From Pengzhenrongella sicca (lineage in GTDB: Bacteria; Actinomycetota; Actinomycetes; Actinomycetales; Cellulomonadaceae), in NCBI RefSeq assembly GCF_017569225.1, contig NZ_CP071868.1, forward strand, positions 248,001 through 312,000: a DNA stretch of 64,000 nucleotides, read 5' to 3'. Position 1 is the first letter of the stretch. The number at the start of each line of letters is the position of its first letter. The notes beneath the pieces are model-generated. The model worked only from the letters and a program-made list of their open reading frames with translations. It was not told the DNA's origin and searched no databases. Made by a program: the position numbers and the translations under genes. Below, piece by piece: positions 2,186 through 36,761 of the stretch.

Positions 2186-3918
2186 CCGCGGTGGCCGAGC
2201 CGTCGGCCGCGCACGACTCCGCCGCCGGCGCGGGCGCTGCCGGGCGCCGCGTCGTGGTCATCGGGGGCGGCATCGCCGGCCTCGCCGCCGCCGCGCTGCT
2301 GGCCCGCGGCGGGGCGAGCGTGACGCTCGTCGAGCGGCACGAGCACGTCGGCGGCCGGGTCGGGACGCTCGAGCTCGACGGCTTCCGGTTTGACACGGGC
2401 CCGTCGTGGTACTTCATGCCCGAGGTGTTCGAGCACTTCTTCGCGCTGTTCGGCGAGCGCATCGAGGACCACCTCGACCTCGAGCGCCTCGACCCCGCCT
2501 ACCGGGTCTTCTTCGAGTCGGCGCCCGGCGGCCCGGCGCAGACCCTCGAGGTCGGGGCCGACCCCGAGGAGAACTGGGCCCGCTTCGACGCGTGGGAGCC
2601 TGGGGCCGGCGAACGGATGCGCGCCTACGCGGCCGAGTCCAGCGAGGCCTACCGCACCGCCCTCGACCACTTCCTGTACACGACCTTCGCCCGCAGCGAC
2701 CGCGCGCTGAGCGCCGACGTGCTGAGGCGGACCCCCACGCTGGCCCGCCTGCTGTCGGAGCACCTCGCGACGCGCGTCGAGCGCACCGTCCAGGACCCCC
2801 GACTGCGGCAGGTGCTCGGGTACCACGCCGTCTTCCTCGGCTCCTCGCCGTACCGCGTCCCGGCGCTCTACTCGCTGATGAGCCACCTCGACCTCGTCGA
2901 CGGCGTCCGCTTCCCGCGCGGCGGCATGTACACGCTCATCGAGGCGATCGAGCGCCTCGCCCGCGCGCAGGGCGTCGAGATCAGGACCGGCGCCGACGTC
3001 GTCGCGATCGAGGTCGACCCGGCACCCCGCTCGGCGCGCAGCCCGCGGCGCACCGGCCTCGCCCGCGGCGTGCGGCTGGCGACCGGCGAGGTGCTGGCGG
3101 CCGACGTCGTCGTCTCCGGCGCCGACCTGCACCACACCGAGACCGCGCTGCTCGCGCCCGAGCACTCCGCCCGGCCCGAGCGGTCGTGGGACCGCAGCGG
3201 GCCCGGCATCTCCGCCCTGCTCGTCATGGCTGGCGTGCGCGGGGAGCTGCCTGAGCTCGCGCACCACTCCCTGTTCTTCACCCGGGACTGGCCGGGCAAC
3301 TTCGACGACCTGCTCGGTTCCGGGCCCGCGAGCCCGGTCGGGTCGCTGCACGTGCCGGAGGTCGGGTCGATCTACGTGTCCCGGACGACCGCCACCGATC
3401 CGGCCGCCGCGCCTCCCGGCCACGAGAACCTGTTCCTGCTCGTGCCGTTCCCCGCCGACCCCACGCTCGGCTCGGCCGACGGCTCGGGCCCCGACTCGCG
3501 CGCCGCGCTCGAGGCGCACGCCGACCGCTACCTCGACCAGGTCGGGCAGTGGGCCGGGATCCCGGGCCTGCGGGAGCGCGTGGTGACCCGCCGCGTCGTC
3601 GGGCCCGCCGACTTCGCCAACGACTTCTCGGCCTGGCGCGGCGGCGCCCTCGGCATGGAGCACACGCTGCGCCAGAGCGCGATGTTCCGGCCCGGGAACG
3701 TCTCGCCCCGCGTGCCGAACCTGCTGTACGTCGGCGGCGGCACGATCCCCGGCGTCGGCCTGCCGATGTGCCTGATCAGCGCCGAGCTCGTCGCGAAGCG
3801 GCTGCTCGGGGAGACCTCCGCGAGCCCGCTGCCGGCGCCGCTGCGCCCCGGCTTCCTCGCCGCCGCGCGGGCGCGGGGGTTGTGGCCCGGCGCGGCGACC
3901 CGGGCCGCCCGCCGGTGA
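2182..3918 (+). CDS. crtI: Phytoene desaturase CrtI
   Basis: A 578-residue FAD-dependent desaturase that should turn phytoene into lycopene. The Rossmann signature VVVIGGGIAGLAAAALLA lies near residues 24-41, followed by the flavin-contact segment HVGGRVGTLELDGFRFDTGPS. The C-terminal carotenoid-desaturase signature is present as LYVGGGTIPGVGLPMCLISAE. It starts with GTG in a GTGA overlap with crtB and ends in a GTGA overlap with crtYe. The roughly 20-residue Ala/Gly-rich N-terminal extension before the Rossmann fold is slightly longer than usual. Confidence 0.92.
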   Translation: MTAVAEPSAAHDSAAGAGAAGRRVVVIGGGIAGLAAAALLARGGASVTLVERHEHVGGRVGTLELDGFRFDTGPSWYFMPEVFEHFFALFGERIEDHLDLERLDPAYRVFFESAPGGPAQTLEVGADPEENWARFDAWEPGAGERMRAYAAESSEAYRTALDHFLYTTFARSDRALSADVLRRTPTLARLLSEHLATRVERTVQDPRLRQVLGYHAVFLGSSPYRVPALYSLMSHLDLVDGVRFPRGGMYTLIEAIERLARAQGVEIRTGADVVAIEVDPAPRSARSPRRTGLARGVRLATGEVLAADVVVSGADLHHTETALLAPEHSARPERSWDRSGPGISALLVMAGVRGELPELAHHSLFFTRDWPGNFDDLLGSGPASPVGSLHVPEVGSIYVSRTTATDPAAAPPGHENLFLLVPFPADPTLGSADGSGPDSRAALEAHADRYLDQVGQWAGIPGLRERVVTRRVVGPADFANDFSAWRGGALGMEHTLRQSAMFRPGNVSPRVPNLLYVGGGTIPGVGLPMCLISAELVAKRLLGETSASPLPAPLRPGFLAAARARGLWPGAATRAARR

Positions 3919-10131: not shown

Positions 10132-10265
10132 CACGTTCATCGCTCGATCATTCGGGCGATGAGCGAGGCATTGACATCCCTGGCGCACCAACGGTCGCCA
10201 TTTGCCGGGAATCGAGCCAGAGGCGAGACCGACGCTCGGTCGCGGTTCTAGCAAGGGATTTCCTC

Positions 10266-34541: not shown

Positions 34542-35420
34542 GTGACAGACGACGCCCTCGCCCCCCTCGCCGAGCTGCCGGGGGTCGCCGACGCGATCGC
34601 CCGCGCCCGGGTGGCGTGCGAGGAGCTGCGCTGGCACGAGGCGTTCCGGCGGCGGTGGCGCGCCGTGCGGGCCGAGGCGACGGTCCGCTCCGCGCGCGCG
34701 AGCGCGGCGGTCGAGGGGGCCCGGGTGCCGGTCGGCGCGCTGCGGGACGCGCTGCGCGGCGCCGCCCCCGCGCCGCTGGGCGCCGACGGCCGGCTCGCGT
34801 TCGGGGCGTTGCGCGCCGCCGCCGAGGTCGAGCGGTTGCTCCCGGACCTGGGTGCGCGGGACCGCCCCGCCGGCCCGCCGTTCGGTCAGCTGCTCGCGCG
34901 CCTGCACGCCGCGGCGACTGCCGACATCGCGATCGCCGACGGCGGCGGGACCGCTGCCGGGCGCCCGCGGGGTGATGGCGCGCCGCGCGACCTCGGCGGG
35001 CTCGGGCCGGCGCCTGCAGCGGCCGAGACCGCCGCGCGGCTCGACCTGCTCGGCGAGCTCGTGCGCACCTCGCGTGCGCCGGCCCTCGTGCTCGCGGCCG
35101 TGGTGCACGGCGAGCTGCTCGCGCTGCGTCCGTTCGCCGTGGGCAGCGGGCTCGTGGCCCGGGCGGCGTTCCGGCTGCTCGTCGCGCAGCGGGGCCTCGA
35201 CCCGACGGGTGCCGTCGTCGCCGACATCGCGTGGCTCGACCAGTCCGGGTCCGCGAACGTCTACCTCGGCGCGGCGGCCGGCTTCGCGACCGGGACGCCG
35301 GCGGGGGTCGCCGCGTGGCTGATCGCGTGCGCCGACGCCGTCCGGCTCGGCGCCGACGAGGGCCGCGCCATCGCGGACGCGGTGCTCGCCGGCCGGCTCG
35401 AGGCGCCCGCGGCGGGTTGA
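34542..35420 (+). CDS. Fic-fold protein with degenerate active site
   Basis: A 292-residue helical protein. Residues 54-59 read SAAVEG, a match to the inhibitory-helix motif (S/T)xxxE(G/N) of Fic AMPylases. Residues 196-207 read RPFAVGSGLVAR, aligning with the catalytic Fic motif HPFx(D/E)GNGRxxR. His is replaced by Arg196, the acidic residue by Val200, Asn by Ser202 and the first Arg by Leu204; the Gly pair and last Arg207 are kept. AMP transfer is therefore unlikely. From gene order it appears to be the counterpart of mycobacterial Rv3662c, next to the HAD and Tad genes. Probably a binding or scaffold protein; function unknown. Confidence 0.65.
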   Translation: MTDDALAPLAELPGVADAIARARVACEELRWHEAFRRRWRAVRAEATVRSARASAAVEGARVPVGALRDALRGAAPAPLGADGRLAFGALRAAAEVERLLPDLGARDRPAGPPFGQLLARLHAAATADIAIADGGGTAAGRPRGDGAPRDLGGLGPAPAAAETAARLDLLGELVRTSRAPALVLAAVVHGELLALRPFAVGSGLVARAAFRLLVAQRGLDPTGAVVADIAWLDQSGSANVYLGAAAGFATGTPAGVAAWLIACADAVRLGADEGRAIADAVLAGRLEAPAAG

Positions 35421-35445
35421 GGGCCGGGCTGCCGCGCCGGACACG

Positions 35446-35474
35446 ACAACGGCGCCCGGCGGGGGCGCCGTTGT
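35446..35474. terminator. Hairpin between the Fic-like gene and the Ms1-position RNA
   Basis: ACAACGGCGCC (35446-35456) and GGCGCCGTTGT (35464-35474) form a perfect 11-bp stem with a 7-base loop. It starts 25 bases after the Fic-like stop. It can terminate that gene and also the proposed minus-strand RNA running towards it. Confidence 0.7.
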
Positions 35475-35690
35475 TGACAACGCGGCGGGACGGCTATCAG
35501 GCGTGCAACGTCGATGTCGCTACGGGACCAGCCCGGTCGACATGTCCTCCCGAGGACAAATCGCGCGTGGGTGCCTTCTCGTCGGTTCTGTTGTGTCTGC
35601 ATTGGTACTCCGATTCCCGTCTGCTGGGAAGAGTGGAGAGCAAACGCGCAGGTCCGCGGCTCGGGCGTGCCGGATGCCGGACGGTCTGCC
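35446..35690 (-). ncRNA. Candidate Ms1 (MTS2823)-type RNA, boundaries approximate
   Basis: The 285-base gap between the convergent Fic-like and HAD genes holds no supported reading frame, is less GC-rich than its surroundings and is full of small inverted repeats. Examples are ATGTCG...CGACAT enclosing CGGG-ACCAG-CCCG (35516-35545), GTCCTC-CC-GAGGAC just after it, and TTCCC...GGGAA (35612-35630). In mycobacteria the abundant stationary-phase RNA Ms1, which binds core RNA polymerase, is encoded between the counterparts of exactly these two genes, on the HAD-gene strand. The assignment rests on synteny and structure, not on sequence alignment. The 3' end is taken as the shared hairpin; the 5' end is unknown. 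Confidence 0.5.
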
Positions 35691-35705
35691 CGGATGGTGG
35701 ACCGA

Positions 35706-36515
35706 TCAGGCGTGCGTGACCCGCCGCGCGACGACGCGCCAGCCGATCGCCCCGACGGCCACCGCGGCGGCGACGGCACCGACGGCCACGACCACCGGCG
35801 TCGGCGGGGTCAGGCGCGAGCGCAGGGACACCGGCCGCCGGAACGTCAGCACCCCCCAGCCGCTGGCGAGGGCGAGCCGGCGCAGCGCGCGGTCGGGATT
35901 CACCGCGAAGCCGTGCCCGACGGCGGCCAGCATCGGGGCGTCCGTGATCGAGTCGGAGTAGGCGTAGCTCGCCGCGAGGTCGTAGCCCTGCGCCGCCGCG
36001 AGCTCGCGGATGGCGCTGGCCTTGTTCTCCCCGTAGGCGTAGAAGTCGATCCCGCCCGTGTACTTGCCGTCGGCGACCGTCATCCGCGTCGCGATGACGC
36101 GGTCGGCGCCGAGGACGGCGGCGATCGGCTCGACGACCTCGGCGCCCGAGGCGGAGACGACGACGACGTCGCGGCCGGCCGCGTGGTGCTCCTCGATCAG
36201 GGCGACGGCCTCGGCGTAGACCGTGGGGTCGATGAGGTCGTGCAGCGTCTCGGCGACGATCTGCGAGATCTGGGCGACGTCCCAGCCGATGGCGAGCTCG
36301 GAGAGCCGCGCGCGCAGCCGTTCGGTCTGGTCGGCGTCGGCGCGCCCGACGAGGTAGACGAACTGCGCGTAGGCGGTGCGCAGCACGTCCCGGCGCGTGA
36401 TGAGTCCGCCCGCGAGGAACGGACGGGAGAACGCCGTCGCGGACGAGGTGGCGATGATCGTCTTGTCCAGGTCGAAGAACGCGGCGGCGGCGTCCGCGGT
36501 CGGTGTGCCTGCCAT
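35706..36515 (-). CDS. HAD-IB family hydrolase with C-terminal membrane anchor
   Basis: A 269-residue phosphatase of the SerB-like HAD subfamily IB. Motif I is AAFFDLDKTIIATS near residue 13, motif II is VVVVSASGAEVV, motif III uses the Lys of YGENKAS, and motif IV is YSDSITDAPML. After the catalytic domain comes a hydrophobic helix (VVVAVGAVAAAVAVGAIGWRVV) followed by Arg residues. This suggests a tail-anchored or peripheral membrane protein. ATG at 36515 has a GGAGAGG upstream; a TTG just before it is not needed. It corresponds by position to mycobacterial Rv3661, divergent from the Tad operon. Substrate unknown. Confidence 0.88.
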   Translation of the reverse strand: MAGTPTADAAAAFFDLDKTIIATSSATAFSRPFLAGGLITRRDVLRTAYAQFVYLVGRADADQTERLRARLSELAIGWDVAQISQIVAETLHDLIDPTVYAEAVALIEEHHAAGRDVVVVSASGAEVVEPIAAVLGADRVIATRMTVADGKYTGGIDFYAYGENKASAIRELAAAQGYDLAASYAYSDSITDAPMLAAVGHGFAVNPDRALRRLALASGWGVLTFRRPVSLRSRLTPPTPVVVAVGAVAAAVAVGAIGWRVVARRVTHA

Positions 36516-36761
36516 CAATCGGCCCCTCTCCTGCCCGGCGTCGGGCGCACGAGGGCCCGCCCGGCGAGCCTAACCACGCGCGACCGGCCGACCCCAGGCG
36601 TGGGCCGCGTCGCGCCGTGCACATGCGTTCAGCCGTGGGCGCGGTGGGAGCTGCCCCGCGGGCGACGATGAGGCCGGCCAGGGGGTGGGGCTGCCGCCGG
36701 GGGTGGGCGGGCCGGTGTGGGCGGGCCGGGGTGGTGCGGGGCGCGCGGGAGCGGGAGGTGG

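Follow-up and report, generated by a model that had tools for sequence, protein, structure and literature searches.

A probable small-RNA gene of the Ms1 family beside the HAD-IB hydrolase gene of Pengzhenrongella

Introduction

Does the noncoding gap between a HAD-IB hydrolase gene and a convergent Fic-like gene of Pengzhenrongella sicca hold a counterpart of the mycobacterial RNA Ms1? Ms1 associates with RNA polymerase core enzyme that lacks the primary sigma factor (PMC9130861, PMC4191392), its bubble being required for core binding (PMC4191392), and it is reported to account for more than 60% of the stationary-phase RNAP RIP-seq reads in M. smegmatis (PMC11077062). 6S RNA, Ms1 and CoRP are all described as resembling an open promoter (PMC11077062, PMC4191392). 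The homologue of Ms1 in S. coelicolor is scr3559 (PMC11077062), and association with the RNAP core has been shown in this species (PMC9130861).

An earlier note on this DNA presented the locus as a first extension of Ms1 beyond mycobacteria. That extension had already been made: Ms1 was reported in 2022 in 824 actinobacterial species of 146 genera, and Table 4 of that study lists Cellulomonas, Actinotalea and Oerskovia, so that Cellulomonadaceae are included (PMC9130861). Those candidates were called by annotation synteny, with words that include Fic, HAD and CpaE, and by BLAST; a structure-based homology search was unsuccessful according to the authors (PMC9130861). Pengzhenrongella is not named in the main text or in Table 4 of PMC9130861.

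Results

Gene calls in the window (the whole stretch of 64,000 nucleotides that was analysed) leave a noncoding gap of 285 bases at 35421–35705. The gap had been placed between convergent Fic-like and HAD-IB genes, and the gene ends at 35420 (+) and 35706 (−) confirm this. It is also less GC-rich than its surroundings, as had been claimed, with a G+C content of 0.64–0.67 (two 150-base windows wholly inside the gap) versus 0.78–0.87 for Fic and 0.71–0.81 for HAD. The description of the gap as frame-free did not hold: open frames span it on both strands, for example 35231–35719 (+), 35261–35779 (−) and 35497–36624 (−). They overlap Fic or HAD, and in our judgement they look like frames that arise by chance where G+C is high. 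Past HAD come two plus-strand genes, the first matching a ParA-type family weakly, under its cut-off, and the second encoding a T2SSE-type ATPase; we label these two CpaE-like and TadA-like. In the named genome set, the closest relative of the window HAD is that of Pengzhenrongella frigida (86% identity). The features of the locus are collected in Table 1.

Table 1. Predicted RNA gene of the gap, its parts and its flanking genes (window positions).
Feature	Position	Strand	Remarks
Fic-like gene	34542..35420	+	Pfam Fic PF02661, 25.5 bits, cut-off 24; convergent; flank, outside the RNA
Terminator-like hairpin	35446..35475	−	Conserved in relatives; tail is not a plain U run
Predicted Ms1-type small RNA, ~150 nt	35446..35595	−	+1 near 35595; 3' end at 35446 or within a few bases past it
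Internal loop, 3' strand GCACGCCTGATA	35495..35506	−	From the 25-sequence alignment; coordinates counted off the sequence
Distal hairpins TGTCC/GGACA and TGTCG/CGACA with inner CGGG/CCCG	35515..35558	−	Compensatory changes
Internal loop, 5' strand ACCCACGCG	35564..35572	−	(Near-)invariant in the 25-sequence alignment; coordinates counted off the sequence
-10 element GTACCAATG, counterpart of GTACAAAGG	35600..35608	−	Aligned with relatives
-35-like TTCCCA	35625..35630	−	17 bases ahead of TACCAA; similar TTCCC/TTGNN in relatives
HAD-IB hydrolase gene	35706..36518	−	Pfam HAD PF12710, 133.5 bits; same strand as the RNA and upstream of it; flank

Two other RNA elements were observed in this survey. 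A c-di-GMP-II-GAG riboswitch (RF03169) lies elsewhere in the window, at 10155–10243 (+; 56.3 bits, cut-off 40). In mycobacterial loci and several others (L141–L152, L115 and others), 6C RNA (RF01066) lies ahead of HAD, encoded on the other strand; it gave no match at gathering in the window, where the corresponding interval is 36519–36716.

The search with an Ms1 covariance model that the earlier note had proposed found nothing in the window. At gathering, Rfam has no match in the gap and the gathering score of RF02566 (Ms1) is not reached; at a permissive threshold, five weak matches were returned for 35300–35800, RF02566 not among them. RF02566 also failed to match 6 of 6 Streptomyces loci, from species other than S. 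coelicolor. Because it fails throughout these loci, in a genus for which core binding has been shown, and because Rfam is stated to find only close relatives of mycobacteria (PMC9130861), its gathering score was not taken as defining the family. Folding of the single sequence was not significant (z −1.34 on the minus strand, with an equal or better fold in 19/200 shuffles; z −1.99 on the plus strand, 7/200). Since there was neither significant single-sequence structure nor an Rfam match to Ms1, the original claim rested on synteny.

Relatives were then compared. A profile of the gap, searched against 80 named HAD loci at E<=0.01, picked up similar sequence next to HAD in 27 of them. RNAalifold gave a fragmentary structure on the first alignment, which included L047, and the helices were therefore written by hand from visible compensatory changes and tested by shuffles and slides, a test that is favoured by the structure coming from the same alignment. 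In alignment A1 (25 sequences, without L047; 36 pairs), 90.1% of cells are paired, versus 39–53% in slid controls, and 76 cells are changed on both sides versus a shuffle mean of 27.2, a value reached by 0/500 shuffles. Two of the five measures failed to beat the shuffles on A1, namely pairs with a double change (71/500) and pair types (300/500). Alignment A3, drawn from 100 sources, comprises the 92 matches that reach E<=0.0005, aligned by the covariance model R1, which derives from the window's clade. It has 581 double-changed cells versus a shuffle mean of 177.4, and none of 500 shuffles reaches any of the five measures; being fitted to R1, it leans to the structure by construction. Double changes occur in 33 of 35 pairs. 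The gap had been called structure-rich: this stands for conserved structure, with strong compensatory changes in both the 25- and the 92-sequence alignments, and falls for single-sequence folding.

In the conserved unit, a closing stem bears a central internal loop, whose strands are conserved, and distal hairpins, and a terminator-like hairpin follows; the hairpin at 35446–35474 pointed out earlier is thus present in the window and kept in the aligned relatives. As in Ms1, a long hairpin carries a central internal loop, and the loop and adjacent stems are the most conserved parts. In the window RNA 32/35 consensus pairs form and 3/35 fail, with two mismatched pairs in the closing stem, and all pairs of the distal-hairpin helices form. 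This sequence has its free-energy optimum in a different fold (−69.4 kcal/mol, versus −56.3 when the consensus is enforced).

R1 matches the window at 35440–35600 (−; 161 nt, E 2.4e-22). Its 141.2 bits are among the best scores, and the match is the sole one at E<=0.001 in the whole 4.4-Mb genome (4.395 Mb, single contig). Scans of 35300–35900 with a standard sigma-70 pattern and for consensus terminators found no site and no terminator, respectively. Alignment with relatives places a -10 element ahead of the RNA which, in the window, agrees with the consensus at 7/9 positions. The raw counts, not set against a chance expectation, are 33/92 relatives whose best 9-base upstream element agrees with GTACAAAGG at 8 positions or more, and 5/92 in which no such element was found. 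The window RNA would have its own predicted promoter just upstream, as Ms1 does. As regards the strand, G-U counts were mixed: GU 10 and AC 16 for the A1 body, and 59 to 83, against the strand, for all A3 body pairs. When A3 is restricted to pairs in which standard pairing reaches 85%, GU 42 and AC 24 in the body and GU 67 and AC 12 in the terminator favour the minus strand and are moderately supportive. The assignment of the strand rests on the promoter element and on synteny.

Transcript lengths were predicted by placing +1 at 13 bases from the start of the -10 element, as in Ms1. This gives 147–151 nt in four loci of the window's clade, the window included, 171–179 nt in one Pimelobacter and two Nocardioides loci, 222–223 nt in L134 and L135, and 223–226 nt in five Streptomyces loci. 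Kitasatospora-type loci, which have a variant element, come to 225–227 (L067 is not in the alignment), and RF02566 matches to mycobacterial Ms1 are 301–307 long. The Streptomyces prediction agrees with the mapped ends of scr3559 in S. coelicolor, 3,934,693 to 3,934,920 (PMC9130861). The lengths thus appear to form a predicted series of about 150, 175, 225 and 305 nt, in which the window's clade is the shortest. The 200–300 nt expected in the earlier note, also the length range looked for in an Ms1 RNA, looks too long for the window RNA, at about 150 nt predicted; since length varies within the family, we did not take it as defining.

In order to relate these RNAs to mycobacterial Ms1, mycobacterial loci were recognised by strong PPE matches and RF02566 in a source set of 22 genomes, G205 and G240 (mycobacterial genus) being left out. 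The RF02566 scan took 18 of the 21 loci L132–L152 and matched 11, all from one PPE-rich genus. The best R1 match falls inside Ms1, on the right strand, in 10/11 loci (E 0.007–1.7), and none falls inside in L145. Model R2 was built from 92 sequences, none of them mycobacterial. Its best match falls inside the RF02566 Ms1 interval, on the right strand, in 11/11 loci, with E from 1.9e-7 to 0.01 in a 78-kb search. Genome-wide, the R2 matches to Ms1 are individually weak (E 0.003 to 0.92); they rank first in 10/11 mycobacterial genomes and third in G049, the places having been mapped by hand to RF02566 intervals.

The same loci carry recognisable counterparts of the conserved sequences of the window's clade. 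In 11/11 Ms1 loci, the RF02566 start is closely preceded by GTACAAAGG. The counterpart of the ACCCACGCG loop strand, ACCCACG, is found at +81 to +83 of Ms1 in 11/11, and that of the GCACGCCTGATA loop strand, GCACGC[CT]TG[AG]TAAC, in 9/11. The window Fic protein matches the gene facing Ms1 in 10/11 loci with 38–44% identity; in the eleventh (L144) the contig ends too soon. Like Ms1, the window RNA is encoded on the strand of the HAD-IB hydrolase gene, between that gene and the neighbour it usually has. A position close to the origin and an orientation toward it are published for Ms1 in 84% of cases (PMC4191392). In the window's contig a DnaA domain lies at 1.5 kb and the RNA at 283.4–283.6 kb on the minus strand, 283 kb away and pointing toward dnaA; the RNA gene is therefore near the replication origin and would be transcribed toward it.

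Among the 80 named loci, R1 matches 67 at E<=0.001, with one match each; 24 of these 67 were in its seed. An R2 rescan of the 13 loci missed by R1 and of two same-genus loci recovered 2 of the 13, and 11/80 remain without a match. Among these 11, the contig of L079 ends two bases past HAD. The four Promicromonospora loci (L032, L033, L060 and L070), also among the 11, have HAD and no R2 match at E<=0.5; Table 4 of PMC9130861 does not list this genus. At the level of whole genomes, R1 matches 71/246 of the class, and R2, which was built partly from genomes of the class and family on which it was then scanned, matches 117/246 of the class and 116/150 of the family, with a single match at E<=0.001 per positive genome. 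Within the genus, the RNA is found in 3/5 genomes (the window's, G250 and G292); over 3650 bases, G292 does not differ from the P. frigida record. In the other two, G275 and G308, a whole-genome search with R2 gave nothing even at E<=1, and HAD too lacks a close orthologue there, the best matches being 36–38% identical; this suggests that RNA and HAD were lost jointly.

Discussion

The covariation, the R2 matches in 11/11 mycobacterial loci and the common promoter and internal-loop sequences led us to file the RNA under the Ms1 family. The proposal that a counterpart of Ms1 lies on the HAD strand and ends at the hairpin is supported by this evidence and by the flanking genes, orthologous in 10/11 loci. 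From sequence comparison we give a probability of about 85% to an Ms1-family small RNA being encoded by a gene of its own on the minus strand of the gap in Pengzhenrongella (Micrococcales).

How such an RNA would act is suggested by its studied relatives. It would accumulate in stationary phase, its promoter-like internal loop may allow it to bind core RNA polymerase without sigma, and polymerase might thereby be held in reserve until growth resumes. An Ms1-type RNA of the window's clade could instead, in the manner of 6S, bind holoenzyme that contains sigma, or, as corynebacterial CoRP does, both forms, and not core alone. The resemblance of all three RNAs to an open promoter would suit this, the predicted 150 nt is closer to the length of 6S, and core binding by Ms1-type RNAs is shown, in the cited sources, only in mycobacteria and S. 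coelicolor. Against it, the conserved sequences are those common with Ms1, whose bubble is needed for core binding (PMC4191392), and the 6S model RF00013 has 0 matches in the whole genome at E<=0.001, with 5/14 control genomes matched. We consider such binding improbable. An identity with 6S RNA itself was rejected, as RF00013 has no match in the genome at E<=0.001.

We also consider it very unlikely, slightly more so than binding to the holoenzyme, that there is no separate RNA gene and that the conserved element serves HAD and/or Fic only as 3' untranslated region or as a terminator they share. Its place between two convergent genes is what this would predict, and in 58 of the 85 genomes having both an R2 match and HAD the element follows HAD on its strand at a distance of at most 500 bases (of the other 27, it is within 5 kb in 16, nearby but otherwise arranged in 7 and on another contig in 4). 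However, a conserved promoter-like element belongs to the RNA itself; in L030 and L066 both are inverted with respect to HAD; 32 of the 117 RNA-positive genomes have no HAD match at 1e-60; and Pengzhenrongella frigida (L004) has the RNA with no Fic match in the 1.4 kb downstream. A plain 3' untranslated region was rejected on the promoter-like element, the inverted loci and the positives without HAD. The inverted genes lie at 3311–3473 (−) in L030 and 3289–3467 (−) in L066, with the promoter element inside, as small local inversions of one RNA gene. Elsewhere, in L085, L086 and L095 (family f23), the RNA is found beside Fic and 6C RNA, and HAD was not found in the 1.5-kb flank.

A decayed, unexpressed Ms1 locus in the window's species is hardly credible: the two departures from the -10 consensus and the two mismatched pairs of the closing stem would fit decay, but 32/35 consensus pairs form, the 141.2 bits are among the best scores and two same-genus genomes keep the RNA.

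Taking the locus as an Ms1-family gene, its predicted ~150 nt is less than scr3559 (~227 nt) and Ms1 (~300 nt), and the window's clade would therefore have a near-minimal form. We lean, at slightly better than even odds, towards a broader view: Cellulomonadaceae have a near-minimal Ms1 of about 150 nt; under one covariance model, these short RNAs, the Streptomyces type and mycobacterial Ms1 make up a single ancient family; the true module for polymerase binding consists of the closing stem and the conserved loop strands; and the arms of varying length are lineage-specific additions or losses. In the literature covered, the search found no covariance model joining mycobacterial, Streptomyces and short Ms1-type RNAs. 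What appears to be added here, by comparison of sequences, is the short form, a model-level and covariation-supported link to mycobacterial Ms1, and evidence for an autonomous gene. Ms1-type RNAs influence the amount of RNA polymerase kept in the resting cells of a major bacterial group, and a covariation-supported model turns the earlier extension by gene order and local BLAST into ordinary homology. The model also indicates loop nucleotides for a binding test, and the predicted short form would be convenient for structural work.

Compared with known systems, the window RNA has in common with 6S RNA a hairpin with a central open loop, a resemblance in apparent mode of action only; RF00013 has no match in the genome at E<=0.001, and the core enzyme to which Ms1 binds lacks the primary sigma factor. 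The Cellulomonas, Actinotalea and Oerskovia candidates of PMC9130861 belong to the same bacterial family, have the same synteny words and are represented by loci of these genera in A1, whereas they were called by synteny and BLAST, and Pengzhenrongella stands outside Table 4. Compared through loci of other Streptomyces species, scr3559/Str13 of Streptomyces coelicolor is longer (~223–228 nt), with a longer 5' arm, and the Streptomyces loci found by R1 are at the same HAD/Fic place with the same promoter element. Mycobacterial Ms1/MTS2823 (RF02566) differs by its 301–307 nt, the window RNA (~150 nt predicted) having a shorter 5' arm and a shorter part beyond the loop and no RF02566 match. The two are alike in the order HAD, RNA, convergent Fic-like gene (10/11 loci), in the -10 element and both internal-loop strands, in a closing stem followed directly by the terminator hairpin, and in their location near the origin, pointing to it.
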